A stretch of 64,000 bases of DNA. Origin: Actinomycetota bacterium (lineage in GTDB: Bacteria; Actinomycetota; Coriobacteriia; Anaerosomatales; Anaerosomataceae). Position numbers and translations under genes: made by a program. The stretch's first letter is position 1. Each line of letters begins with the position of its first letter. Location: contig WSXY01000002.1 of the NCBI GenBank assembly GCA_009773565.1, forward strand, positions 381,805-445,804, given 5' to 3'. The notes beneath the pieces are model-generated. The model saw nothing but the letters and a program-made list of their open reading frames with translations, did not search any database and was not told the DNA's origin. This document shows, one piece after another, positions 378-17,543 of the stretch.

Positions 378-1124
378 GTGGCCCTCGAGGGAAACCTCAA
401 GGACTTCTCGATTGCGGACATGTTCCGCCTGCTGGCGTCGGGTCGAAAGACCGGCACGCTGTATCTCGAGCGTCCCGATGCCCAGGGCAAGGTCTGCTTC
501 AAGAAGGGCCGTGTGTTCTTCGCATCCAGCAACTGGCATCGCGAATCGCTCGGCCGCCGCATCGTGAAGGTCGGGGTCATCTCCGAGAAGCAACTCAGGC
601 AGGCACTCGGGCTCCAGAAGATCCAGAAGAAGGAGAAGGCCGACCGGCGTCTCGGGCAGATTCTTGTCGATGAGGGCTATCTCGACGCCAAGGTGCTTGA
701 GAACTTCATCCAGGAGCAGATCAACGACACGCTCTTCGACCTCTTCCGCTGGGAGGACGGCCAGCTTCGATTCGAGCCGGATGAAGCATGCGAGGACGAG
801 GACATCGGTATCTCCGTCTCGGTCGAGAACATCATCATGGAATCATCTCGCCGCCTTGAGCTCTGGAGCCGGATCAAGCAGAAGATACCGTCGCTTGAGA
901 GCGAGTTCATCATGGCGTCGTCTCCGGGCGACAAGTCTATGGAGATCCATCTCAAGCCGAAGGAGTGGATGCTTCTGTGCTACCTGCACGGAGGTCGCTC
1001 CGTCGCCGAGCTTGTTTCGCTGACCGGTTACAACGATTTTGAGACCGCGAGAATCCTCTACGGTATGTACTCTGCCGGGCTCATCGAGAAGCTTGAGGAT
1101 GGCGCCGAAGGCGCTGTCGAGTGA
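378..1124 (+). CDS. DUF4388 (PATAN-type) domain protein
   Basis: Protein of 248 aa starting at GTG 378 after GGGGAG. The N-terminal 60 residues (LEGNLKDFSIADMFRLLASG, then a short beta-rich stretch) match the DUF4388/PATAN module found with response regulators and gliding or pilus signalling. Residues about 70-115 contain RRLGQILVDEGYLDAKVL...EQ, the helical repeat also seen at the N-terminus of GspE/PilB-type proteins. There is no transmembrane segment. It is the first gene of the chemosensory operon; cheR follows after 16 nt. DUF4388 proteins are thought to be adaptors or output modules, but no biochemical role can be read from the sequence. Confidence 0.75.
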   Translation: MALEGNLKDFSIADMFRLLASGRKTGTLYLERPDAQGKVCFKKGRVFFASSNWHRESLGRRIVKVGVISEKQLRQALGLQKIQKKEKADRRLGQILVDEGYLDAKVLENFIQEQINDTLFDLFRWEDGQLRFEPDEACEDEDIGISVSVENIIMESSRRLELWSRIKQKIPSLESEFIMASSPGDKSMEIHLKPKEWMLLCYLHGGRSVAELVSLTGYNDFETARILYGMYSAGLIEKLEDGAEGAVE

Positions 1125-1140
1125 GCATGGAATCCACGCC

Positions 1141-2643
1141 GTGAACGAAGAAGGTCTTGCCAAGGATCTGACGCTCGAAGAGTTCGCCAGCTTCCGCGAC
1201 TTCATTCACAAGGCGTCCGGCATCTATCTCGAAGAAGGCAAGCTCGATTCGCTCCGTATCTCGCTCGTCACGCGCGCAACCCGGCTGGGCTTCCCTTCGT
1301 TCGATGACTACTACCGCTCGCTCTCCGGAGACGAACGAGAGTTCAACGAGCTCATGAACCTCGTGACGATCAACGAGACAAGCTTCTTCCGCTTCCCGCA
1401 GCAGTTCGAGGCCTTCAAGACCCGTGTGCTCCCCGAGATCATGGCGGGTAAGCCGCAGTCCAACAAGACGATTCGCGTGTGGTCCGCCGGATGCTCAACA
1501 GGCGAGGAGCCCTATTCGCTCGGCATGGCGCTTCTGGATGCCGGGATTCAGGGTCTCGGATGGACGCCGCAGGTTCTCGGTACCGATGTCTCGACTCGCG
1601 CGCTTGCGCTCGCCCAGAAGGGCGTGTACGGCCGCCGCGCGATGCTCAATGTTGAGAAGGAAGTCATTGCCCGTCACTTTGAGCCGGCGGACGAGTCCTA
1701 TCGGGTGACACCCCAGGTGCGGAGTCTCGTTGATTTCGGCTATCACAACCTGATCAAGGAGCCGTACCCGTTGTCCCTCATGGGTAACTGGGACGTTATC
1801 TTCTGCCGTAACGTCACGATCTACTTCCGGCTGGAGTCGACTCGTCGAGTCGTATCGAACTTCTTCAACAGCCTTAACCCGGGCGGCTACCTCTTCATCG
1901 GCCATTCCGAGACGCTCTCTTCGATCTCGGACGATTTCGAGCCGGTCGAAATAGGGGGCGTCTTCCTGTATCGCAAGCCCAAGACGAAGCAGCTTGTCGC
2001 CGTGCGAGCTTCGCGTGCGCCCGTTGTTGCCGACCGTCTCTCGCAGGCGTCCCAGGCTAATGCCGAGACCGTCAAGTCGCCTCGTAAGCACGAGAGCCCC
2101 GCAGTTATGTCTGCGGCGGTGCCACCGACGGACGAGCTCATCATTGATGCGAGGCGCAGCCTAAGCAACGGGCACCCCGAACGAGTTCTTGAGACCGTCG
2201 CTCGGATTCTCGAGACTGATCCCGGAAATGCCGAGGCGCATCTCCTCTCGGCATACGTGCACGCCGACTCGGGCGACTACGTCAGGGCGCTCGAAGCATG
2301 TCATCGCGCTCTGTCTATCAACCCGCTCTTGCCGGTTGCGCGCTACATCCTCGGCATCATCTATCAGCGCCAGGGGGATCCGGTTCGTGCGGTGAGCGAG
2401 CTCAAGAAGACGATCTACATCGATGCTGAGTTCGCGCTCGCGCATCTGAACCTTGCGAATATCTACAAGTCGCAGCGCAAGTGGGAAGATGCGGCGCGCG
2501 AATACGAGAACGCGCTCCGGGCGCTTTACAAGAGCCCTGAAGGGGCGTGGACCGAGTTCCTCGGCGGGTTCAAGGCCGATCTACTCGCCAAGACGTGCGA
2601 GCGGAGTCTGCTAGAGTGTCGGAAGGCGATGGGCGCGGCGTGA
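1141..2643 (+). CDS. cheR: CheR chemoreceptor methyltransferase with C-terminal TPRs
   Basis: S-adenosylmethionine-dependent methylation of glutamates on MCPs. The N-terminal CheR helical domain (LTLEEFASFRDFIHKASG) is followed by the methyltransferase core with the SAM loop WSAGCSTGEEPYS and FCRNVTIYF. After a linker at about residues 290-340, the C-terminal third (LLSAYVHADSGDYVRALEA, ALAHLNLANIYKSQRKWEDA) consists of TPR repeats, as in CheR proteins of alternative or pilus-type systems. GTG 1141 is chosen because it is in frame, lies just after the previous stop and directly precedes the conserved domain; the frame is open upstream but overlaps the previous gene. About 500 aa. Confidence 0.9.
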   Translation: MNEEGLAKDLTLEEFASFRDFIHKASGIYLEEGKLDSLRISLVTRATRLGFPSFDDYYRSLSGDEREFNELMNLVTINETSFFRFPQQFEAFKTRVLPEIMAGKPQSNKTIRVWSAGCSTGEEPYSLGMALLDAGIQGLGWTPQVLGTDVSTRALALAQKGVYGRRAMLNVEKEVIARHFEPADESYRVTPQVRSLVDFGYHNLIKEPYPLSLMGNWDVIFCRNVTIYFRLESTRRVVSNFFNSLNPGGYLFIGHSETLSSISDDFEPVEIGGVFLYRKPKTKQLVAVRASRAPVVADRLSQASQANAETVKSPRKHESPAVMSAAVPPTDELIIDARRSLSNGHPERVLETVARILETDPGNAEAHLLSAYVHADSGDYVRALEACHRALSINPLLPVARYILGIIYQRQGDPVRAVSELKKTIYIDAEFALAHLNLANIYKSQRKWEDAAREYENALRALYKSPEGAWTEFLGGFKADLLAKTCERSLLECRKAMGAA

Positions 2644-2715
2644 GAATGCCGCTTGGACCCCGCTTTCTGTGGGGCCATATCGGACGTTGTGGGCGTGTTG
2701 AGGAGGGAGCAGGGC

Positions 2716-3093
2716 ATGGCTGCACGTATACTCGCGGTCGATGACAGCCCGACGATTCTCGAGATGATCAAGGCGATTCTCGAGGTTGGCGGATACGACG
2801 TCATCACGGCCGTGGATGGCGCGGAAGCACTGGAGACCGCGCGGGCCGAGAAGCCCGATCTCATACTGCTCGATGTCATGCTGCCGAAGCTGGACGGCTA
2901 TCGCGTCTGCCGGTTGCTCAAGTTCGACCAGAATTACAAGAGCATCCCGATCATCATGCTGACCGCAAAGACCGAGGAGCAGGCAATGGCGACGGGCATC
3001 CGCACCGGCGCAAACCAGTACCTTACGAAGCCGGTCGAGCCCGATACGCTGCTCGCTGCCGTAGCCGAAGAACTTGCCAAGGTTCAGGGTTAG
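2716..3093 (+). CDS. CheY/PilG-like single-domain response regulator
   Basis: Stand-alone receiver of 125 aa. ATG 2716 follows AGGAGGGAGCAGGG. Visible receiver residues are the acidic pair in ILAVDDS, the phospho-acceptor Asp in LILLDVMLPKLDG, Thr in MLTAKT and Lys in YLTKPVE, so it should be phosphorylatable, presumably by the CheA of this operon. There is no output domain. Its position next to a PilB-like gene, rather than flagellar genes, favours a role like PilG/PilH in pilus or surface motility; that is inference from context. Confidence 0.88.
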   Translation: MAARILAVDDSPTILEMIKAILEVGGYDVITAVDGAEALETARAEKPDLILLDVMLPKLDGYRVCRLLKFDQNYKSIPIIMLTAKTEEQAMATGIRTGANQYLTKPVEPDTLLAAVAEELAKVQG

Positions 3094-3098
3094 GCGTC

Positions 3099-4982
3099 GT
3101 GATGATCGACCCGAATGGTATTTCGAGCCGCGTTCTCGACAGTCTTGTGAACGCCGGACTGCTGACCATGGAGCAGCTGGCGAGCATCGACGAGCAAGCC
3201 GGCGCGCGTCACGTGACGTCGGGCGCGATCCTGATGGAGCGCGGTCTTGTCTCGGTTTCTGATGTGGCTTCCGTGCTTGAGCACGAGATGGGAGTCCCGC
3301 GGGTCGATCTCTCGAGTTATGCGCCCGAGGACGCGGCACTCGCGCTCGTTCCGGCCGAGCTCGCGCGTGCACACAACCTGCTGCCGCTCTTCGACATCGA
3401 GGGCATGCTCACGGTGGCGATCGGCGATGCGATGGATGTCTTCGCGCTCGACGCCGTGGCTGTCCACATCGGTCTCGAACTTGAGCCCGTGCTGGCCGAC
3501 GCCGCGTCCGTTACCGCGGCGATCGATCAATACTATGGCGCGTCCGCTCTTGAGCCGGCACCACCAGTCGCACAGGATGACTTCCCCCCGCCTCCGCCTG
3601 TCGCTGAAGCAGAGGGAATTCGCGATACGGAACCTGGTGAGCCCGTATTCGCGACCTCGGACTTCTTCGAGGCGAGCGACGCGGTGGCGACGCTTGGGGT
3701 TCCGGTCGCCCCGGTTGCCGAGTTTGATGCTCCCGCGGCCGTTTCCGCCGTTGAGACGATCGAGCAGATTGCCGTGGCGGTCGCGCCCGGTGGCCGCGAG
3801 TCGATAGACCTCGACGTTCTCGCAGTCGCGGATAGCCGCAAGACCGCTGTGCTGGTGGCCGATATTCTCGAAAGCGCGGTGGCAAAAGGGGCCAGCATGA
3901 TTCACCTGCTGCCCTACAAAGACGACTTCTTCCTCGTCTTCAGGGTCAAAGGCGGGCTCGAGAAGATCGGAAGTGCACCGCTCTCAATGCAGGGTGCTCT
4001 TGTCGACGCATTCAAGAGCTTCGCCAAGATGTCCGGCGTTCAGGCGTCTCGCCCTGCGCTCGCGCGGGTGCGGGCGCATATCGGCGACAAGGACCTGGTC
4101 GTGACCGTCTCAGCCGTTCCGACCATCGCCGGTCAGCGACTGGTGGTCTCGCTCGCTCCGCACAAGCCGGAGCCCCGGGGCCTCGGTGAGCTTGGCATGT
4201 CTGACACCGAGACGCGCGCGCTCCACGCGATGGTCGAGCGCGGCAGGGGCCTTCTGCTGGTGTGCGCTCCCGTGGGCGCCGGTGCGAGCACCACGTACTA
4301 CGCGCTTCTCGCGCATGCAGCGGCCGTGGGCAAGACCGTCTACTCCGTCGAACGTTCGGTTGAGTACGAGATTCCCGCTGTGGCCCAGGTCATGGTCAAT
4401 ACGGCCTCTCCTGTTCCCACCGCAAACTACATTGCTGCGGGCTTACGGCAGGACACCGATGTCATCGCGCTCGACGGTATCCGGACTGTGGAGGATGCGC
4501 ATCTCGCGGTCGAAGCCGCGGGTCTCGGCAAGTTGGTCATCGCCACGTATCCCGCCGCCGACATCTCGACCGGCGTGCGCAGGTTGCTTGACCTCGGCGT
4601 CGAGCCGCACGGGCTTGCCGCGGCTCTTACACTCGGGGTCGGACAGCGACTCGTAAGGCTGAACTGCGCCAACTGCACGGTTGAGCAGCCGGGCACGGTG
4701 CTTGACCGGATCCCGGGTGCGACGACGGGTATCGTGAACAAGGTCGGCACAGGCTGTCCCAACTGCGGGAAGACCGGCTTCCGCGGTACGGTCGGCATCT
4801 TCGAAGTGCTTCCGTTCACCGAGTCGGTCAGAGGCGCTGTGGCCAACGGGGGCACGGCGCTGCAGGTCGCAGCTGCGGCTGGCGCAGCGGGCATGAGGCC
4901 ACTCAGTACGTCGGGGCTCTCTCGTGTGGTATCCGGTCAGGTCAGCGCCGAGGAGCTCGATCGCGTCCTGAGGTTCTCTTGA
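3099..4982 (+). CDS. PilB/GspE-like protein with degraded ATPase motifs
   Basis: A 627-aa protein with type II/IV secretion ATPase architecture: an N-terminal GspEII/MshEN-like domain (about 10-150), an acidic, proline-rich linker (about 155-245) and a C-terminal ATPase-like domain. All catalytic motifs are altered. The Walker A lysine is Ala396 (APVGAGAST), the Walker B region reads ALDGIRT with Gly460 for the glutamate, the Asp box is VERSVEY, and the His box is IATYPAAD. The zinc tetracysteine of PilB is kept (C523, C526, C553, C556). It starts 5 nt after the response regulator gene and is followed by cheW. It cannot be a conventional pilus-extension motor; a scaffold or sensor role is inferred. 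MshEN domains can bind c-di-GMP, but the motif here is too weak to claim that. Confidence 0.82.
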   Translation: MMIDPNGISSRVLDSLVNAGLLTMEQLASIDEQAGARHVTSGAILMERGLVSVSDVASVLEHEMGVPRVDLSSYAPEDAALALVPAELARAHNLLPLFDIEGMLTVAIGDAMDVFALDAVAVHIGLELEPVLADAASVTAAIDQYYGASALEPAPPVAQDDFPPPPPVAEAEGIRDTEPGEPVFATSDFFEASDAVATLGVPVAPVAEFDAPAAVSAVETIEQIAVAVAPGGRESIDLDVLAVADSRKTAVLVADILESAVAKGASMIHLLPYKDDFFLVFRVKGGLEKIGSAPLSMQGALVDAFKSFAKMSGVQASRPALARVRAHIGDKDLVVTVSAVPTIAGQRLVVSLAPHKPEPRGLGELGMSDTETRALHAMVERGRGLLLVCAPVGAGASTTYYALLAHAAAVGKTVYSVERSVEYEIPAVAQVMVNTASPVPTANYIAAGLRQDTDVIALDGIRTVEDAHLAVEAAGLGKLVIATYPAADISTGVRRLLDLGVEPHGLAAALTLGVGQRLVRLNCANCTVEQPGTVLDRIPGATTGIVNKVGTGCPNCGKTGFRGTVGIFEVLPFTESVRGAVANGGTALQVAAAAGAAGMRPLSTSGLSRVVSGQVSAEELDRVLRFS

Positions 4983-4998
4983 GTCACGGGGAGTGATC

Positions 4999-5565
4999 GT
5001 GCCTCGCAAGAAGCAGACAGAACATGAAGCGCCTCCGTCGCCTGAGCGTGTGGCGGTCGGGGACGAGCCGACCTCACAGGCTGAGGAAGTAGTTCGCGTC
5101 ACCCTTCCGGAAGGGCGTGTGGTGGTCTTCCGCCTGGGCGATCAGAGCTATGCGCTCCCGATCGACGTCGTTCAGGAGATTCAGCAGATCGTTGAGTTCA
5201 CGCCTGTTCCTGACTCGGCGCCAGCGCTTGTCGGCATGATCGATGTCCGTGGTCGCATCGTTCCGGCGATCGATGTGCGCGTGCTCGTCGGTCTCGACTC
5301 CCGGCAGTACACGCTCGACACGCCCATGATCCTTTGTCACGCGCACGGTCGTCTCGTGGCGCTTGTGGTCGATGAGGTTGACGATGTCATCACGCTTCCC
5401 GACGGGTCCATTCAGGCTCCGTCGAAGCTGTACGCACTCGCGGATCGCATGATCGGCATCTGCGTGCTCGAGAGCGGGCTTGTCATCATTCTTGATCCCG
5501 AGAGGCTCATTCCGGACACATCGCTTGCGGCAACCGACAACGACGGAGGGGGCCTGGATCTATGA
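4999..5565 (+). CDS. cheW: CheW-like coupling protein 1
   Basis: CheW/SH3-type adaptor linking MCP to CheA. The core (VVFRLGDQSYALPIDVVQEI, LVGMIDVRGRIVPAIDV, LVVDEVDDVI) covers residues about 40-175, after a polar N-terminal extension of about 35 residues. GTG 4999 is preferred because GGGGAG lies at good spacing; an in-frame GTG at 4993 is the alternative. The stop overlaps the next start (ATGA, 5562), implying translational coupling with the second cheW. Confidence 0.85.
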   Translation: MPRKKQTEHEAPPSPERVAVGDEPTSQAEEVVRVTLPEGRVVVFRLGDQSYALPIDVVQEIQQIVEFTPVPDSAPALVGMIDVRGRIVPAIDVRVLVGLDSRQYTLDTPMILCHAHGRLVALVVDEVDDVITLPDGSIQAPSKLYALADRMIGICVLESGLVIILDPERLIPDTSLAATDNDGGGLDL

Positions 5566-6116
5566 CGGACATCGACCCGCTCATTCGTCAGTCGGTAGCG
5601 TCCCAATCGCTCGATATTCTGCGCAAACGCGCTGAATCTCTCGCACAGGTCGAAGAGATCGAAGCAACCGCGGAGATGTTCGCGCTGTTGTGCTTCCGGC
5701 TGGGTTCAGAGTGGTATGCCGTGCGCATCGCCGACGTGCGCGAGATTCACAATGACTTTGTCGTTGCGTCCATACCGCGTGTCCCGTCCTTCATTTTGGG
5801 TGTGATCAACGTTCGGGGTGAGATCATCTCTGTGACCGATACTGCTGCGCTTATCGGAATCGCATCGGATGGCGTACACGGCGGACAGGAGATGTCATCT
5901 GCCATAATCGTGCATTCCGAGCTCTGCGTGAGTGCGCTTGTGGTGGATGAGATCGGCGATATCATCGAGATACGCAAGGATGCCGTGGAGCCTCCCTTGT
6001 CGACATACGATCGAAGCCAGGTGGAGTTCGTCAGCGGTTCTGTCTACGTTGACGGCAGACTCATCGGACTCGTGAATCTCGAGAAAGTGCTCGAACCAAT
6101 CGGCGAGAAAGCTTAG
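5562..6116 (+). CDS. cheW: CheW-like coupling protein 2
   Basis: Second CheW paralogue, 184 aa, beginning at the ATGA overlap with the first. The N-terminal 35 residues look helical, then the CheW fold appears ([48 protein letters not shown]). The two copies are clearly diverged from each other, so they may couple different partners, for example MCP-CheA and the PilB-like protein. Two CheW-type adaptors (PilI and ChpC) are also found in the pilus-type Chp system. Confidence 0.82.
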
Positions 6117-6133: not shown

Positions 6134-7363
6134 ATGATGGCTAAGAGATTCATCAAAATGATCAGGGGCAGTTTCTTGCTCAAGTACTCGCTCGTGAACC
6201 TGGGTCTCATCATCCTTGTGAATACGATTCAGCTGGCGGTCGCGTGGTTGATGTTCGGCGACGAACTCAAGCAGTCACCGAACCTCTACACGGACCTCAT
6301 CATCGTTGTCGGTGCGTTCCTCATCACCGGCGTTGTCTTCATCTACATCTACGCGCAGGTCGGTAAGCGCTTCACTGCGCCGCTCGGCTGGGTGGTGGCC
6401 AGCGTCAAATCGGCATGCGAGGGCGAGATCGGCCATAAGGTCGACGTGAAGTCCGAGGACGAGTTCGGCGTGCTGGCGCGTTCTTATAATCAGATGCTCG
6501 ACCTCATCGTGTACCTGATCACGCAGACACAGGAGTCCTCAAACCGGCTTTCCGGGGCCTCCTCGGAGATTCTTTCGGCGACCGAGCAGCAGGCATCCGG
6601 ATCCGCCGAGCAGGCGGCCTCGATCAGCCAGACGACTGCCACGATGGAGGAACTTGCGTCGACGTACCGTCAGATCGCCGAGAACGCCAACCAGGTCGTG
6701 CATATGGCCGAGGCATCGCTCGGGAACGCCGAGTCAGGCCAGCAGGCCGTCGCGAACACGCTTGACGCCATGGAGCAGATCAAGGTACGCGCCCAGTCGT
6801 CGGCAAACAAGATCCTTCAGCTTGGCGAGCGCAGCCAGCAGATCGCCCAGGTACTTGCGATCATCAACAACATCGCCGATCAGACCAAGATCCTCGCGCT
6901 TAACGCTGCTATCGAAGCCGCGCGCGCCGGCGATGCCGGGAAAGGTTTCTCGGTCGTCGCGGTTGAGATACGCAAACTGGCCGAATCGGTCGTCGATTCA
7001 ACCGGCGAGATCGAGACGATCATGACTGAGATCCAGACGGCCGCGAACGACCTCGTCATATCGACCGAGCAGGAGCTGAAGGAAGTCGGCAACGGGGTGC
7101 AGCTTGCGCACGTTACCGGCGACAGCTTCGAGCAGATCCTCGACACGATCGAGCAGACCACCGTGGCCGCCAAGGAGATCTCGGCGGCGACCCAGCAGCA
7201 GAAGAGCGCAACGGACCAGGTCGTGAAGGCCATGCGAGAAGTCGCCTCGGTCGCGCAGCAGACTGCCGCAGGCAGCAAGCAAGTCGCCGCAGCGGCCGAG
7301 CAGCTCGCCGCTATCGCGCGCGAGTCGAGCCATGTGGGCGCCGCATTCAGGATCGTCAACTGA
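6134..7363 (+). CDS. Methyl-accepting chemotaxis protein with minimal external domain
   Basis: 409 aa. Two membrane segments (about 16-37 and 50-73) enclose only about a dozen external residues; a HAMP domain (about 75-125) follows, then a methyl-accepting coiled coil with the conserved hairpin tip ([27 protein letters not shown]). No periplasmic ligand domain exists, so the signal is probably internal, membrane-borne or delivered by another protein. It would cap the CheA-CheW array encoded around it. ATG 6134 follows GAGAGAGG; ATG 6137 is possible. Confidence 0.9.
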
Positions 7364-7396
7364 CGGATCGCCGGGTATCGCGAAGGGACTGCACGC

Positions 7397-9664
7397 ATGG
7401 TCGAGTTCGACCGGTCGGCGTTCATCAAGAAGTTTCAGGAAGAGGCGACGGAGTATCTCCAGCGCCTGAATGAAGGCGTCATCACCCTGGAAGGCGATCC
7501 GGAGAACCGGGCGCTTATCGACCAGATGCTCCGTGACGCACATACGCTCAAGGGTTCGGCCCGCATGGTCGGTCTCATCGAGATATCGGATGTCGCACAC
7601 CGTCTCGAAGACATCATGGTCAAGGTTCGTGAGGGTGAGTTGCGCTACGAGCCAAAGATGTCGGACAGCTTCTTCGAGGCGCTCGACATGATCGTGTTCC
7701 TTTCGGAGAACGCCGGCAAAGACGTGAGCGGAGAGGTCGATATCCCCGCGCTGCTCGGGCGTCTCGGCACCGTAGCCGGCGCGGAAGCGGAGCCTGCGCC
7801 CGTCGCGACGGCGTCGCCCGAGGAGGAGCTCCAGGCCGACACAGAGACCCACGAATCGGCACCAGCGTCGGTTCAGAAGCCGTCGAAGAAGGCGGTCCAT
7901 GATGAGGAGAAGCTCCAGGCACGCGTACAGAACACCATTCGTGTCCGCACGGAACAAGTGGATAAGCTCCTCAACCTCGTGAGCGAGGTTGTCATCTCGC
8001 AGATCAAAGACGAGCAGCGCGTTCGCGACCTGAGGTCGCTTCAGGCGCTCTCGAATGAGACGCAGCAGATGTGGGTTCGTGTTCGATCGCTTGCGGCGAT
8101 AGCGCAGGCGGGCCCGCGTGAGTCGCTCGATGAGGACATCGAGGCGCTCGATCAGCTTCTGTCGGACCAGCGCAGACAGCTCGGTGTTATCGCGAAAGAG
8201 TATGCAGACGATACGTCGCGCTCCGCATCCGTCGTGGCCGACCTCCAGGAGCGGGGCATGAGTCTCCGCATGTTGCCGGTGTCGACGGTCTTCAGTACCT
8301 TCCCGCGGGCGGTTCGTGATCTTGCGAAGCAGTTCAACAAGGATGTTGAACTTGAGATCGAAGGCGGGGACACCGAGCTCGACAAGAAGGTCCTTGAAGA
8401 GATCAACGATCCGCTCATCCATATCATGCGCAACGCGGTCGATCACGGCATCGAATCTGTGGCGGATCGCGTTGCAGCCGGTAAGCCCGCGAAGGGTACG
8501 ATTCGCCTGGCCGCCCGTCAGGAAGGCGATCATATCGTCATCGAGGTCACTGACGACGGTGCTGGTATCGACCCGGACAAGGTGCGCGCTGCAGCCGTCC
8601 GCAAGGGGCACATCTCGCAGGCAGAGGCCGCTTCGATGTCGGATCGCGAGGCCCGCTACCTGATCTTCGACGCCGGCTTTTCGACAAGTGCGATCATCAC
8701 CGAGATCTCCGGTCGCGGCGTGGGAATGGATGTCGTTCGTGAGTTCGTTGTGGTCAAACTCAAGGGATCGCTCGACGTAGAGTCGGTGCCCGGCAAAGGG
8801 ACAACCCTCAAGCTGACGATTCCTCTCACTCTGGCGATCATCCGGGCTCTGCTGGTACGCGTGAGCGGCCAGTTGTTCGCCCTGCCGACCTCTTCGGTCG
8901 AGGAAACACTCAGGGTGGAGCCCTCAGAGGTCATCAGGGTCGAGGGCCGTGAGGTCATTCGCAGGCAACGACGAACGATTCCGCTCGTCCGCCTACGCGA
9001 TGTTCTCGGACTGGAGTCCATCCCGGTCGAAGGTAAGAAGCTCCCCATGGTGACGGTCGGTTTCTCCGGGCACCGGATGGGCTTCCTGGTGGACGCCTTC
9101 GCCGGCGAGCAGCAGATCGTCATCAAGACCCTCGGGTCTCATCTGGCGCATGTCGATAATGTCGCCGGGGTCACGATTCTCGGCGCGGGGGAGATCGTTC
9201 CCATCCTCAACGTGCCCGACCTCATGCACCATGCCCGGCAGCTCACGGGAATGAGGGTTCGTCACGAGCCAGTGGTACGTACGTCTGAGGTCGGGTCAAA
9301 GCGCATTCTCATCTGCGAGGATTCATTCACGACCCGTGAACTTGAGCGTTCGATCTTCGAGGCTGCGGGCTATGAAGTCGAAACGGCCATCGACGGGGCC
9401 CTCGGCCTCGCCAAGCTCCGTGAGGGGCTCAAGGTCAATGCGGTCGTGACGGACGTGCAGATGCCGAACATGACCGGCTTCGAGTTGACCAGGGCGATCA
9501 AGGGCGACGAGTTGCTTGCGCATATCCCGGTCATCATCGTGACCTCACTCGAGCGCGAAGAAGAGAAGGCAGAGGGTATCAACGCTGGTGCCGATGCCTA
9601 CATCACCAAGTCAGTCTTCAATCAAGACACGCTCATCGATACAGTTGAGCGCCTTATCAGATAG
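7397..9664 (+). CDS. cheA: CheA histidine kinase fused to a receiver domain
   Basis: 755 aa. Domains in order: Hpt with phosphorylatable His49 (AHTLKGSARMVG), a linker, a P3 dimerisation helix pair (about 190-290), a HATPase (IMRNAVDHGIE, DDGAGIDPDKV, SGRGVGMDVV), a CheW-like P5 domain (about 480-610) and a C-terminal receiver (about 635-755, with VVTDVQMPNM and YITKS). The receiver fusion is typical of non-flagellar (Frz/Chp-like) systems, where it acts as a phosphate sink or second output. No separate P2 domain is obvious. It is the central kinase of the operon. Confidence 0.92.
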   Translation: MVEFDRSAFIKKFQEEATEYLQRLNEGVITLEGDPENRALIDQMLRDAHTLKGSARMVGLIEISDVAHRLEDIMVKVREGELRYEPKMSDSFFEALDMIVFLSENAGKDVSGEVDIPALLGRLGTVAGAEAEPAPVATASPEEELQADTETHESAPASVQKPSKKAVHDEEKLQARVQNTIRVRTEQVDKLLNLVSEVVISQIKDEQRVRDLRSLQALSNETQQMWVRVRSLAAIAQAGPRESLDEDIEALDQLLSDQRRQLGVIAKEYADDTSRSASVVADLQERGMSLRMLPVSTVFSTFPRAVRDLAKQFNKDVELEIEGGDTELDKKVLEEINDPLIHIMRNAVDHGIESVADRVAAGKPAKGTIRLAARQEGDHIVIEVTDDGAGIDPDKVRAAAVRKGHISQAEAASMSDREARYLIFDAGFSTSAIITEISGRGVGMDVVREFVVVKLKGSLDVESVPGKGTTLKLTIPLTLAIIRALLVRVSGQLFALPTSSVEETLRVEPSEVIRVEGREVIRRQRRTIPLVRLRDVLGLESIPVEGKKLPMVTVGFSGHRMGFLVDAFAGEQQIVIKTLGSHLAHVDNVAGVTILGAGEIVPILNVPDLMHHARQLTGMRVRHEPVVRTSEVGSKRILICEDSFTTRELERSIFEAAGYEVETAIDGALGLAKLREGLKVNAVVTDVQMPNMTGFELTRAIKGDELLAHIPVIIVTSLEREEEKAEGINAGADAYITKSVFNQDTLIDTVERLIR

Positions 9665-9694
9665 CGGGCAGTGTGGGTGCCTGAAGAGGGAGCG

Positions 9695-10753
9695 GTGCGT
9701 CACGTGACGGCTGGAAAACCGATAGAAGTCGTCATCATCGACGATTCGCTCGTTGCGAGAGAGATGCTCGCTCAGATCCTCAGTACCGATCCGGCTATCC
9801 AGATCGTCGGCATGGCCGTCGACGGTCAAGATGGCGTGGATATGGTCGCACGGCTCAAGCCGGACCTTGTCACCATGGATATCCATATGCCGAGGATGGA
9901 CGGGATCGAGGCCACCGAGCAGATCATGGCCTTCACGCCGACGCCGATCCTCGTCGTATCGTCCTCGGTCCACGGCGAGGGAATGGGCGCGGCGTTCGAC
10001 GCGCTGGCAGCCGGGGCGCTCGAGGTGATCAAGAAGCCGGAGCCGCGCGACTGGGCGGATCTGGAGCGGATCGGCCGCGAGGTCATCCGTAAGGTGAAGA
10101 TCCTCTCGAAAGTGCGGGTCATCACGCACATCCGCGGGCGACGCGGCATGTTGGACCGTGCGGTACTCCGCGTTCCGCCCAGAGTCACCGGTGGCCGTTC
10201 GATCGTGGCTATCGGTTCGTCGACAGGGGGGCCATCTGCGCTGCTGACCGTTCTGTGCCCGCTACCTGCCGAGTTCCCGCTACCGATCGTTATCGCACAG
10301 CACATCGCCGAGGGATTCATACCCGGGCTTGTCGGGTGGCTGAACGGCGCCTGCAGCGTCTCGGTCAAAGCGGCTGAAGATGGTCAGGAACTTGAGCCCG
10401 GTGTGGCGTATTTCGCTCCGACAGGGCGCAATCTGAAGATTTCCGGTGGTGCGATGCATTTTGCCGCACCCGAGAAGGGTCAGCTCTACATCCCGTCGGC
10501 CGACACCCTGCTCGCATCCGTTGCGGAATCGCACGGTACGCACGGTATCGGCGTGCTCCTGACAGGTATGGGAGCTGACGGTGCCCGCGGACTCAAGGCG
10601 ATGCGCGATGCCGGGGCCGCTACGATCGCGCAGGATGAGGCGACGTCGACGGTGTTCGGCATGCCGAAGTCTGCGATCGAGCTCGGTGCCGCCGATAAGG
10701 TGCTCGCCGTACAGGACGTAGCGGGAGAGATACTGCGGCTCGCAGGGCTCTAG
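9695..10753 (+). CDS. cheB: CheB protein-glutamate methylesterase
   Basis: Removes methyl groups added by CheR, giving adaptation. An N-terminal receiver (VVIIDDSLVARE, phospho-Asp in VTMDIHMPRMDG) is joined to the C-terminal methylesterase with the catalytic Ser loop IGSSTGGPSAL, the His of AQHIAEGF and the Asp of LTGMGADGARG. GTG 9695 follows AGAGGGAGC closely; in-frame GTGs at 9671 and 9704 are alternatives. It is the last gene of the chemosensory operon. No cheC, cheD or cheX was found. Confidence 0.9.
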   Translation: MRHVTAGKPIEVVIIDDSLVAREMLAQILSTDPAIQIVGMAVDGQDGVDMVARLKPDLVTMDIHMPRMDGIEATEQIMAFTPTPILVVSSSVHGEGMGAAFDALAAGALEVIKKPEPRDWADLERIGREVIRKVKILSKVRVITHIRGRRGMLDRAVLRVPPRVTGGRSIVAIGSSTGGPSALLTVLCPLPAEFPLPIVIAQHIAEGFIPGLVGWLNGACSVSVKAAEDGQELEPGVAYFAPTGRNLKISGGAMHFAAPEKGQLYIPSADTLLASVAESHGTHGIGVLLTGMGADGARGLKAMRDAGAATIAQDEATSTVFGMPKSAIELGAADKVLAVQDVAGEILRLAGL

Positions 10754-13607: not shown

Positions 13608-13635
13608 TTGCGTTTTATAGGGCAGGCGTTAGAAT
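13608..13635 (+). promoter_or_regulatory. Candidate promoter of tRNA-Lys
   Basis: TTGCGT (13608-13613), a 16-bp spacer and TAGAAT (13630-13635) sit about 16 nt before the tRNA, suggesting that tRNA-Lys is transcribed separately from the four upstream tRNAs. Confidence 0.5.
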
Positions 13636-13650
13636 GTCCTAGCGTTCGAT

Positions 13651-13726
13651 GGGCCGTTAGCTCAGCTGGTAGAGCAGGGGACTCTTAATCCCAAGGTCAT
13701 AGGTTCGATCCCTATACGGCCCACCA
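13651..13726 (+). tRNA. tRNA-Lys (anticodon CTT), integration target of the island
   Basis: 76 nt with acceptor GGGCCGT/ACGGCCC, anticodon loop CTCTTAA and encoded CCA. The segment from 13679 to 3 nt past the CCA recurs exactly at 34685-34735. The 5' half is therefore native and the 3' half was supplied by the inserted element, which restored a functional gene. Confidence 0.96.
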
Positions 13727-13729
13727 TCG
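13679..13729 (+). repeat. attL of the genomic island (51-bp direct repeat)
   Basis: Identical over 51 bp to 34685-34735 and covering the anticodon loop, T-arm, acceptor 3' strand, CCA and 3 further bases of tRNA-Lys. Sequences on both sides of the two copies differ. Tyrosine recombinases of phages and integrative elements typically use this part of tRNA genes as attB. Confidence 0.92.
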
Positions 13730-13736
13730 AAACTAC

Positions 13737-13770
13737 GAAGAGTCGGTTTCCGAGAGGGGGCCGGCTTTTC
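13737..13770 (+). terminator. Terminator after tRNA-Lys, on the island side
   Basis: A 10-bp stem (13737-13746 with 13761-13770, two G-T pairs) ends in CTTTTC. Since it lies beyond attL it belongs to the island; the host's own tRNA-Lys terminator is the hairpin at 34743-34773. Confidence 0.6.
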
Positions 13771-13789
13771 TGCATCTAGCTGCGGAAAT

Positions 13790-13872
13790 GAGTCCCCTGC
13801 TCGCCTTCGGCTGCGCTTCGCAACCGCGAAAGCGCCGGTTGCTGGGGGCTCCACCAGCTGAGCTAACGGCCC
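13790..13872 (-). repeat. Inverted, interrupted copy of the tRNA-Lys 5' half
   Basis: On the reverse strand 13872-13848 matches tRNA-Lys bases 1-25 with one difference, and 13802-13790 (GAGCAGGGGACTC) matches bases 22-34. Between them is a 45-nt GC-rich insert with overlapping self-complementary stems; GAGC occurs on both sides of it. There is no 3' tRNA half, so it cannot be a working tRNA. It may be a relic of an older integration or a structural part of the recombination region. Confidence 0.7.
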
Positions 13873-14386
13873 ATCAAACGCCCATTTACGGGAGACATAC
13901 GTGACAACGGGAGACTGAGGCGACCGTAGCCTGCCAAAAGGATGGCTTGGGCACCCGATGCCCCAAGTGAGCCGTGTTCGTCGTTCTCTGGCCACCTGGT
14001 GCGCCAGGGCGACCATTGTCAGTGGGTTGGGATATCATGGAACACGCTGCTGGGGAGGCTTGCAGCGGACTTCAATCTCCCGGAGGCTTTCTTTGTTCGA
14101 ACAGGTGTCAGATATCTGAAGAAGTTTGACCATTCATCGGTAGAGTGATATTTTCAATTTCTGCTAGGTTTGCCTAGCACTTGAGGGCACAGGATTCCCT
14201 GCGCAGCTGACCTCGTCGACTGGTGTTCGCAACGCTGAGAACACAGCTCACGGCGAGGTTTTCTTGTTTCCGGAAACAACCAAGTCCTGCTGTGAGCACC
14301 CAAGGCCGCCCAATAATTGGTGCGGGCCCAGGGAGGTTCTGGCGGTCGATCTCCCGCTACGGGTCGCCAAGCAGGAAGGGGACAAA
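13873..14386. other. Non-coding left end of the island with inverted repeats
   Basis: No convincing gene. It holds three structured sites: TGCTAGG-TTTG-CCTAGCA (14162-14179), an 18-nt perfect hairpin or operator; a two-level stem (outer ACCTCG/CGAGGT, inner GTGTTC/GAACAC, 14210-14259) ending in TTTTCTT, terminator-like; and the perfect 12-bp palindrome GTTTCCGGAAAC (14266-14277). They may be regulatory or recombinase-accessory sites near attL. Confidence 0.45.
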
Positions 14387-15274
14387 ATGTCTCCAGTAAG
14401 TGATATGGGTGGACGCGAGATCCGCCTCGAGTCAATCGAGCGCAGGTCACTCGTCAACCGCAGCAGGGTTGAGTATGGGACGTGGGGTATCAACCACGTC
14501 CAGGGGTGTTCGCACGGATGCCTGTACTGCTATGCGTGCAGCGAGGCCAAGGCTCACGGGCGTGTTCGGAACTATCAGGAGTGGTGCGTGCCCAAGGTCG
14601 TCGGCAACGCGGTCGAGCAGATCCAGCGCGAGCTGGCTCGCAAGAGGACACCGATAGATCGGGTTCATCTGTGCTTCGCGACGGATCCGTTCATGTGGGA
14701 TTCGGCTACCGGCTCGGCCCATCCTGAGATTGCTGGCATGACTCTCGAAGTCATGAAGAGTCTCAACGATCAGGGTATCCCGGTCACCGTACTCACCAAA
14801 GGCATCTATCCGGAACTGGACTTGAGCGGGTTGCACCCGGACAACCAGTACGGAATCACGGCGGTATCACTGGGTGAGGAGTTCCACGCAGCCTGGGAAA
14901 CCAACACGCCGTCGGTGTTCGATCGGATTGAGGCACTGCGGGTACTTGCGGAAGCCGGCGCTCGCACGTGGGTGAGTGTCGAGCCCTACCCCACGCCCAA
15001 CATCGATCCGACAGCGTCTGATGTGGACGCCCTGCTCAACGAGCTTGAATTCGTCGACAAGTTCATCTTCGGTCGGCTGAACTACACGTTGGCGGTCACT
15101 CAGTACCTGAAGAACGTCGATGCTTCGTTCTATGCGCGGATCGCTGCTGACGTGAAGGCGTGGTGTGTTATGCGGGACAAGCCGCTACACATCAAGCATC
15201 GCACGCCGCTTTATAATCCTGCGACGAAGACGATCCTCGCGGTCGACTTCGACTATTGGAATGCGGTGGGCTAG
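14387..15274 (+). CDS. Radical SAM protein, SPL/COG1533-like
   Basis: 295-aa cytosolic protein with the radical SAM 4Fe-4S motif CSHGCLYC (CxxxCxxC) near residue 45, followed by a TIM-barrel-like region (HLCFATDPFMWD, VTVLTKGIYPELD, TWVSVEPYPTPN). The layout resembles spore-photoproduct-lyase-related radical SAM proteins often found in phages and islands; the substrate is unknown. ATG 14387 follows GGAAGGGGAC and excludes an unconserved upstream extension. It precedes the type III restriction-modification genes in the same direction by about 150 nt, so a nucleic-acid modification role is possible but inferred. Confidence 0.75.
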   Translation: MSPVSDMGGREIRLESIERRSLVNRSRVEYGTWGINHVQGCSHGCLYCYACSEAKAHGRVRNYQEWCVPKVVGNAVEQIQRELARKRTPIDRVHLCFATDPFMWDSATGSAHPEIAGMTLEVMKSLNDQGIPVTVLTKGIYPELDLSGLHPDNQYGITAVSLGEEFHAAWETNTPSVFDRIEALRVLAEAGARTWVSVEPYPTPNIDPTASDVDALLNELEFVDKFIFGRLNYTLAVTQYLKNVDASFYARIAADVKAWCVMRDKPLHIKHRTPLYNPATKTILAVDFDYWNAVG

Positions 15275-15422
15275 AGCCGGCGCGTCCGAGTTTCGCATCC
15301 TATGGGGTGGCTCTCTCCGAGTGTGGGGAGGGCCACCCTGCCTACGGGAAGCGGCCACATTGGCTATCATGGTCAGAGTCGCAGTTGGGGAGCTGCATCC
15401 TACTTCTGACCTCGGAGGATCC

Positions 15423-17543
15423 ATGGCCCGATTGACTGACCAAGAGCAGCAAGACGTCATTCGCTTCCTCGAGGCCGGCAAGCCGCTGCCGGACAAGTAC
15501 CGGTTCCTGCTATTCGACGAGAAGCGTGAAGTTGAGCTCGTGTGGAATGGGAAGACGGGCGACGTCACGAACGTCGTACTGCCTTTCCAGACGATTGAGC
15601 AAGTCGACGAGCCGAGAGCAGAGAAGACTGAAGACTCCGCACTTCAATTGGACTTCTTCTCGTTGGACGATCGTGGTCGTCAACTCAAAGGCTGGACGAA
15701 CAAGCTGATTTGGGGCGACAACAAGCTCATCTTGTCCTCGCTGAAGAATGGCCCCCTGCGGGAGGAAATCGAGGCTCATGGTGGGCTCAAGCTAATCTAC
15801 ATTGATCCGCCATTCGACGTGGGTGCCGACTTCTCCATGGAAGTGAAGGTGGGGGGAGACAGCCTCACGAAGCGCCCCGGTATTCTTGAGGAAATCGCCT
15901 ATCGTGATACGTGGGGCAAGGGCGCGGATTCGTTCATCTGCATGATTCACGAGCGACTCGTGCTAATGCGGGATCTCCTGGCGGACGATGGGACAATATA
16001 TGTTCACTGTGACTGGCGAGTGAACTCCTATATGACCCTGGTGCTCGACGAAGTATTCGGGCGGGCGAACCAACTCAATCAAGTGCAGTGGCATTTCAAG
16101 AGGTGGCCGACGCCAGCCAGAGAGTGGCAGAAGATGCACAACACCATCTTCGTGTACACGAAGGCGAAGGGTCGACACACCTTCAACACCATGTATGGAG
16201 AGCGGAGCGAGGAGACTCAGAGGAGGTGGGGCAATAGTCGGATCGTCGCGGCGCACGATGAGGGAGGCAACCGGGTTCCCTCGGATTATGACACTCGAGA
16301 GTCGGAGGGTGCGCCATTGGACGATGTGTGGGACATCTCGATCATTGCTCCGGTCGCCCATGAACGTGTCGACTACCCGACGCAGAAGCCAGAGGCTCTG
16401 ATTGAACGCATAGTCCGAGCATCTTCGAACGAGGGGGATCTGGTCGCTGACTTCTTCTGTGGTTCCGGTACTCTGCCTGCCGTCGCGGAGAGGCTTGGCA
16501 GGAAGTGGATCGCGAGCGATCTGGGCAAATTCGCAATCCACACATCACGCAAGCGAATGATAGACGTACAGCGCCGAATGAAGTCCGACGGACGGGACTT
16601 TCGTGCCTTTGAGATTCTGAACTTGGGCCGATACGAGCGGCAGCACTACGTTGGCGTTAATCCCAACCTGCGTGAGGAACAGCAGCGCCTTCAGCTTGAG
16701 GCTCGTGAGCAGGAGTTCACGGATCTCATCCTGCGTGCGTACAGGGCGGAGCCAACGACCGGGTCAAGCGCGTTCCACGGCAAGAAGGCTGGCAGGATGG
16801 TGGCCGTTGGGCCGATCAACATGCCAGTGACCCGTCTGTTTGTCGAGGAGATCATCCTCGAGTGTCGCAAGCAGCACATCACCAAGGCCGACATTCTCGG
16901 TTTCGAGTTCGAGATGGGGCTGTTCCCGAATCTGCTGGATGACGCACGGGCCAAGGGTATCGACCTGTCTCCGAAATACATCCCGACAGAGGTTTTCGAC
17001 AAGCGAGCCATTGAGAAGAATCAGGTCGTGTTTCACGACGTCGCATATATCGAGGTCAAGCCGTACGTCGTCGGCAACACGGTGGCCGTCGAGCTGACCG
17101 ATTTCTCGGTGTTCTACTCGCAGGACTCAGTGGCGAACGCTGAGGAGACCGTGAAGAACAAGGGCAGCAGAGTGGTCGTCGAGCGAGGTCAGATTATCAA
17201 AGTGAGCAAGGACAAGGACGGCATCGTCACCCGGGAAGTGCTCACCAAGGAGTGGACGGACTGGATTGACTACTGGGCCGTGGACTTCGACTTCGAGAAC
17301 AAGTCGGAGATCATCCGAGTCCAGGATCCGGACACTGCTGAGTGGGAAGAGAAGTGGACTGGCGACTACGTCTTCGAGAACGAGTGGCAGAGCTTCCGGA
17401 CTAAGAGGGATAGGTCACTCGAGCTCAAGAGCGTATTCCATGAGTGCGTGCCCGGCAGGAGAAAGATCGCTGTCAAGGTCGTCGATATCTTCGGCAACGA
17501 CACGATGGCCATCGTCGAGGTCAGCGTGGGAGGCGGCAAGTAA
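15423..17543 (+). CDS. mod: Type III restriction-modification methyltransferase (Mod)
   Basis: 706-aa beta-class adenine-N6 methyltransferase. Motif IV is DPPF at 128-131 and comes before the SAM motif DFFCGSGTLPA at about 343-353, the order expected for beta-class Mod proteins. The C-terminal half is unlike Res and should include target recognition and Res contacts. ATG 15423 follows GGAGG; open frame continues upstream but without similarity. The stop overlaps the Res start (TAATG), as usual for a Mod-Res pair. It would protect the cell by methylating one strand of an asymmetric site. Confidence 0.9.
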   Translation: MARLTDQEQQDVIRFLEAGKPLPDKYRFLLFDEKREVELVWNGKTGDVTNVVLPFQTIEQVDEPRAEKTEDSALQLDFFSLDDRGRQLKGWTNKLIWGDNKLILSSLKNGPLREEIEAHGGLKLIYIDPPFDVGADFSMEVKVGGDSLTKRPGILEEIAYRDTWGKGADSFICMIHERLVLMRDLLADDGTIYVHCDWRVNSYMTLVLDEVFGRANQLNQVQWHFKRWPTPAREWQKMHNTIFVYTKAKGRHTFNTMYGERSEETQRRWGNSRIVAAHDEGGNRVPSDYDTRESEGAPLDDVWDISIIAPVAHERVDYPTQKPEALIERIVRASSNEGDLVADFFCGSGTLPAVAERLGRKWIASDLGKFAIHTSRKRMIDVQRRMKSDGRDFRAFEILNLGRYERQHYVGVNPNLREEQQRLQLEAREQEFTDLILRAYRAEPTTGSSAFHGKKAGRMVAVGPINMPVTRLFVEEIILECRKQHITKADILGFEFEMGLFPNLLDDARAKGIDLSPKYIPTEVFDKRAIEKNQVVFHDVAYIEVKPYVVGNTVAVELTDFSVFYSQDSVANAEETVKNKGSRVVVERGQIIKVSKDKDGIVTREVLTKEWTDWIDYWAVDFDFENKSEIIRVQDPDTAEWEEKWTGDYVFENEWQSFRTKRDRSLELKSVFHECVPGRRKIAVKVVDIFGNDTMAIVEVSVGGGK

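Follow-up and report, generated by a model that had tools for sequence, protein, structure and literature searches.

The window, i.e., the whole stretch of 64,000 nucleotides analyzed here, begins with a chemosensory operon whose genes were assigned by Pfam searches as follows:

378..1124, + strand: DUF4388 (PATAN-type) protein, the first gene of the operon (PF14332, E 2.4e-33; syntenic)
1120..2643, + strand: CheR methyltransferase with TPRs (syntenic; start uncertain, the mechanical ORF begins at 1039)
2653..3093, + strand: stand-alone receiver (phosphorylation residues D30/D31/D74/T104/K126 kept in the alignment)
3099..4982, + strand: PilB-type pseudo-ATPase (T2SSE and MshEN; 43 distinct orthologues)
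4993..5565, + strand: CheW 1
5562..6116, + strand: CheW 2
6134..7363, + strand: MCP with a HAMP domain
7397..9664, + strand: CheA-receiver hybrid kinase (Hpt His and N/G boxes kept)
9671..10753, + strand: CheB methylesterase

The Pfam matches confirm the position between a receiver and a cheW gene that the initial annotation had given for the pseudo-ATPase gene, which is separated from these neighbors by gaps of only 5 and 10 bases, respectively. From reading the translations, we take the two genes following cheB to be murI and then rph. DUF4388 is the PATAN domain. The phosphorylation residues of the receiver are kept in all 39 aligned sequences. With identities of 79–95%, the receiver shows much higher conservation than the neighboring pseudo-ATPase, and its stretch VCRLLKFDxxYKxIP is nearly invariant and also present in the corresponding receivers of three genomes of another class (G461, G471 and G527, see below).

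The open reading frame of the pseudo-ATPase gene is intact, starting with GTG at 3099 or ATG at 3102 and ending at 4982 (627 or 626 amino acids). The family alignment makes ATG 3102 the more likely start, while all residue numbers given here follow the GTG start. The product matches the T2SSE profile PF00437 with 203 bits (E 6.6e-60, residues 249–622) and carries an N-terminal MshEN domain (PF05157, E 4.8e-16). Its AlphaFold2 model has a mean pLDDT of 82; the T2SSE part resembles the known PilB/PilF structures 5tsh and 5oiu (Z 32; rmsd 3.0 over 381 residues with 5oiu_C), and the MshEN domain resembles that of MshE (5htl, Z 12.8). Profile and predicted fold together place the protein in the PilB/GspE (T2SSE) superfamily. 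In searches against NCBIfam, it stayed well under all motor cut-offs, scoring 285 bits against the PilB equivalog TIGR02538 with its curated cut-off of 676. It shares with the members of TIGR02538 the domain order MshEN-N2D-CTD, the zinc cysteines and the predicted fold, but differs from them by lacking the catalytic motifs and the c-di-GMP motif and by being encoded in a che operon. The following features were located within the gene:

3129..3287, + strand: former c-di-GMP double motif of MshEN, residues 11–63 (from the family alignment; motif according to PMC5013675)
3546..3749, + strand: disordered, variable Pro/Ala-rich linker, residues 150–217 (pLDDT < 50; mean column entropy 2.16 bits)
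3903..3953, + strand: N2D strand FLVFR in place of RVRYR, which in active PilB carries two of three conserved Arg (Phe278 and Val280 invariant)
4266..4301, + strand: dead Walker A, APVGAGASTTYY, with Ala396 for Lys (R, A, S or G at position 396 in 43/43)
4341..4373, + strand: altered Asp box YSVERSVEYEI (Asp419 lost in 43/43, Glu418 kept)
4455..4487, + strand: dead Walker B TDVIALDGIRT with Gly460 for Glu (Glu lost in 43/43, Asp459 invariant)
4533..4565, + strand: lost His box LVIATYPAADI (His485 absent in 43/43)
4665..4766, + strand: zinc subdomain with Cys523/526/553/556 (kept in 43/43)

These residue counts refer to 43 distinct full-length orthologues from the whole order (Anaerosomatales-type Coriobacteriia), which are 53–97% identical to each other. 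Lys396, Asp419, Glu460, Asp463, His485, Arg278 and Arg280 are lost in every one of them, whereas Arg282 of the N2D strand is always retained. The initial annotation had correctly read the exchanges of the Walker A Lys to Ala396 and of the Walker B Glu to Gly460, the changed Asp and His boxes (ERSVEY for EDPVEY and TYPAAD for TLHTND), and the retention of a PilB-type fold, an N-terminal domain and the zinc cysteines; the two exchanged arginines and the altered c-di-GMP motif are additional losses. Its statement that every nucleotide-handling motif is lost applies to the main catalytic residues but is slightly too strong, because every family member retains Ser397 (Ser or Thr), Glu418 and the new Asp459, as well as Gly395. 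Because of Ser397, Glu418 and Asp459, weak binding of a nucleotide or another ligand is conceivable. Position 396 varies freely among R, A, S and G, while other replacement residues have become fixed (Phe278, Val280, Leu271, Asp459 and Tyr400), and many of the family-specific invariant residues map to the N2D strand that formerly carried the arginines. In the segments of the former ATP site, the column entropy averages 0.56 bits versus 0.91 bits for the remaining T2SSE region, a modest signal as random blocks were equally conserved in 3.5% of the draws (P = 0.035). Being more conserved than the rest of the domain, the site looks re-used rather than drifting.

The MshEN domain was compared with the known c-di-GMP motif, which consists of RLGxx...LxxxLxxQ twice with Arg, Gly and Gln contacts (PMC5013675). 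Most contacts of MshE are substituted in the pseudo-ATPase (in MshE numbering, Gly11 by Leu, Gln32 by Ala, Arg38 by Ser, Thr or His, and Gln61 by Glu), and none of these four positions is kept in any of the 43 orthologues. Judged from these exchanges, c-di-GMP binding is unlikely, and control of the protein by c-di-GMP was ruled out as an explanation.

Relatives with more than 50% identity were found in 37 of 41 sampled genomes, including the source genome, in a search reaching close relatives only. The dN/dS ratios of pairs more than 80% identical range from 0.05 to 0.24. In all 36 coriobacterial loci, the gene order PATAN-CheR-receiver-pseudo-ATPase-CheW-CheW-MCP-CheA-CheB is preserved as far as the contigs extend; the expectation of the initial annotation that orthologues in che operons of related genomes share the motif losses was thus borne out, with complete synteny. 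Among 69 genomes of the order, 56 contain both the operon CheA (E ≤ 1e-90) and the pseudo-ATPase (E ≤ 1e-72), two only the pseudo-ATPase, none only CheA and 11 neither, counts which are not independent because five of the last 11 belong to one genus. The two genomes with the pseudo-ATPase only are G020, which is 70% complete, and G026, where the operon lies on a 4.7-kb contig; G034, counted among the 11, does have part of the operon, situated on a broken contig. Two genomes without the operon, G035 and G038, have kept ordinary PilBs. Sequencing error or chance was ruled out by the agreement of 43 distinct sequences. In a low-coverage MAG, the orthologue is split by a frameshift (L072:6001-7832), which is probably an assembly error; a relative (L073) is intact. 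Another protein found by the scan (L074, bacterium ADurb.Bin157) was set aside as an ordinary PilB with intact motifs. In this order of anaerobic soil and subsurface bacteria, a PilB copy that appears dead from its sequence is built into a che cluster and kept under strong selection.

When 396 genomes of the phylum were scanned, two distant relatives emerged, G471 and G527, both from one other class. As far as they were read, their operons follow the same gene order, with a small-GTPase-like protein added after the PATAN gene. In their PilB-like proteins, the Walker A Lys (P-loop) and the Walker B Glu are present, but the Asp and His boxes are gone, as are the N2D arginines. In a third genome of the same class, G461, the genes for CheB, CheR and a receiver precede that of a PilB in which all motifs are intact. 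In a maximum-likelihood tree, this PilB adjoins the other che-linked proteins with 99/97 support, and its placement holds without the long intermediates (100/98) and without the pseudo-ATPases (98/94). A long-branch artefact was ruled out by leaving out each long group in turn, whereupon both still joined the G461 PilB; only the placement of G471 relative to G527 has weak support (90/54). The simplest history drawn from these three genomes outside the order would be that an active PilB was captured by a che operon and lost its hydrolysis and ring-coupling residues, followed by the P-loop. The added small-GTPase-like proteins of G471 and G527, encoded between PATAN and CheR (L094:4303-4815, + strand, and L095:7483-8013, - strand), are possibly pseudo-GTPases, as they have damaged P-loops (GPFDAGRI and GPGKTEKT) and no Pfam match; a paralogue in the pilus locus of the source genome (L096:10637-11161) is intact.

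The source genome (2.27 Mb, 98% complete) contains a type IV pilus locus (L096) with two intact PilBs, PilT and PilC, so that a real pilus motor is indeed encoded elsewhere, as the initial annotation had presumed. No flagellin (PF00669) was found by Pfam in this 98% complete genome, while the positive controls were detected. CheA, CheW, MCP, CheR, CheB and a receiver in one operon, together with a pilus locus in the genome, are the combination defining a Tfp chemosensory system, and from the missing flagellin and the type IV pilus locus we infer that the operon controls pili. Just upstream of pilB-pilT-pilC on contig C12 lies a gene for a DUF4388 protein 56% identical to that of the operon, adjoining an intact Ras-like GTPase gene (L096:8637-11161, + strand). 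The same contig encodes two fusions of a receiver with a PilB-like protein (L099:2558-5083, - strand, 841 aa, and 13630-16341, + strand, 903 aa). The 903-aa fusion has all ATPase motifs, and the 841-aa fusion may be partly degenerate, with the P-loop and the Walker B Glu kept and ESPIEF and TITASN replacing the Asp and His boxes. Furthermore, a second che cluster (CheA, CheB, receiver, CheW, MCP and CheR) is present on contig C13 of this flagellin-free genome (L097:10257-18999, - strand), accompanied by a PilT-like gene at 6644-7747 of the same locus.

At the level of sequence, these comparisons establish the family-wide loss of catalytic residues, fixation in the operon, purifying selection, a predicted PilB fold and nested intermediates. 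On this basis, we give an even chance to the interpretation that the protein is a pseudo-ATPase derived from the PilB extension motor, fixed in the che operon and acting as a nucleotide-free, PilB-shaped adaptor to the pilus machine. An active PilB would have been captured by the operon and disabled stepwise, and the phosphorylated neighboring receiver and/or the PATAN protein of the operon would bind the resulting adaptor, which would stay permanently nucleotide-free and use its PilB surfaces to link the chemosensory output to the PilC platform or to a real PilB encoded elsewhere. ATP hydrolysis by the pseudo-ATPase is not expected, and the contacts to the receiver or PATAN protein on one side and to the pilus machine on the other are presumed. 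The signal may run from the che system to the pilus, or the state of the pilus may be reported to the che system, as for the Myxococcus PilB acting upstream of Dif. The two receiver-PilB-like fusions of the source genome count in favor of an adaptor. The initial annotation is supported overall in its reading, with the scaffold role that it proposed being the presumptive part.

Several known systems offer precedents. In Myxococcus xanthus, a PilB with its Walker A Lys exchanged to Ala does not hydrolyze ATP but still signals upstream of Dif, and apo PilB has been proposed as the signaling form (PMC5544727). A nucleotide-free or Lys-to-Ala PilB thus signals to a chemosensory system in that species, although there it is a working motor with a second role, while the protein studied here appears to be a dead, dedicated paralogue encoded within a che operon. 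A further precedent is the binding of PilB1 by PATAN-receiver proteins in Synechocystis (PMC9090330; PMC7690835). The likeness to these PATAN-CheY proteins (PixE and relatives) is that a Che-type output meets PilB via PATAN and that the operon described here starts with a DUF4388 gene; in contrast, the PilB partner appears catalytically dead here, and PATAN and receiver, fused in Synechocystis, are encoded by separate genes, which counts against the adaptor. The Pil-Chp system of Pseudomonas aeruginosa is comparable in its CheA, CheW, MCP, CheR, CheB and stand-alone receiver and in serving a bacterium with type IV pili; to our knowledge, its operon contains no PilB-type protein. Extra modulators of pilus extension are also known from Acinetobacter baylyi, with a PilB paralogue (TfpB) and a PilB inhibitor (CpiA) (PMC8213720), but TfpB is an active motor and CpiA has no homology to PilB. 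Our literature search of open-access papers found no described case of a pseudo-ATPase of the PilB family.

Other explanations were weighed against the adaptor. The protein might be a brake, either as a decoy docked on the PilC platform or as a dead subunit in PilB hexamers, which the che system would release or recruit to reduce extension. The entire T2SSE shape preserved in the predicted model would suit this role, a subunit in which the ATP site and the N2D arginines are both gone would disable any mixed ring that it joined, and dedicated PilB inhibitors such as CpiA do exist (PMC8213720). However, an identity of about 30% to the genome's own PilBs makes mixed rings doubtful, and the numerous family-specific invariant residues on the former arginine-bearing N2D strand also speak against a brake, which we regard as rather unlikely. 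We assign a low probability to a ligand-gated che switch, whose remodelled pocket would bind a metabolite or a nucleotide, either ATP that is left unhydrolyzed or a different one. Its appeal comes from the retained Ser397, Gly395, Glu418 and new Asp459, from pocket segments ranking among the most conserved, and from the apparent intermediates with P-loop and Walker B Glu; yet any of four residues (R, A, S, G) can replace the Walker A Lys, a freedom unexpected under selection for phosphate binding, and the Lys-to-Ala exchange in PilB strongly lowers the affinity for ATP (PMC5544727).

Independently of pili, the gene might have been retained merely because it supports operon structure or translational coupling, or because its product is a structural component of the receptor array. 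The short distances to its neighbors would agree with this, as would its occurrence, which follows that of the che operon and not that of pili. A conserved PilB fold is unnecessary for coupling, though, and in a genome devoid of flagellin, pili are the only known motility-type output; we regard this explanation as very improbable. Decay into a pseudogene, finally, has a negligible chance. It would account for the lost motifs, and relatives with intact Walker motifs, which the initial annotation would have taken as a sign of decay, do exist, but only as distant ones in another class. The tree and the dN/dS values show an ancient change of function that has become fixed instead of decay, and the full length of all 43 orthologues, the low dN/dS, the fixed gene order and the order-wide conservation refute it for the family.

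Somewhat more tentatively than the adaptor role as such, we propose that a dedicated chemosensory part evolved stepwise, from capture of an active enzyme via a form that had lost its hydrolysis and ring-coupling residues but still had the P-loop to a fully inactive one, and would now be the physical link between the phosphorylated receiver and the pilus motor. The route from receiver to pilus motor is an open question: according to a 2024 review, neither PilG nor PilH has been reported to interact with PilB, and the route from PilG to PilB is unknown (PMC11656802). A dead PilB encoded beside a receiver is a testable candidate for such a link. Cultured members of the order, described as non-motile yet piliated (PMC9686372), could allow its study, and because of their reported lack of motility, the system may act on the number of pili or on attachment instead of on movement. 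The apparent series from active via half-dead to dead proteins shows how a motor could turn into a signaling part, and a link evolved in this stepwise manner would, if true, represent a novel type of chemosensory output device.
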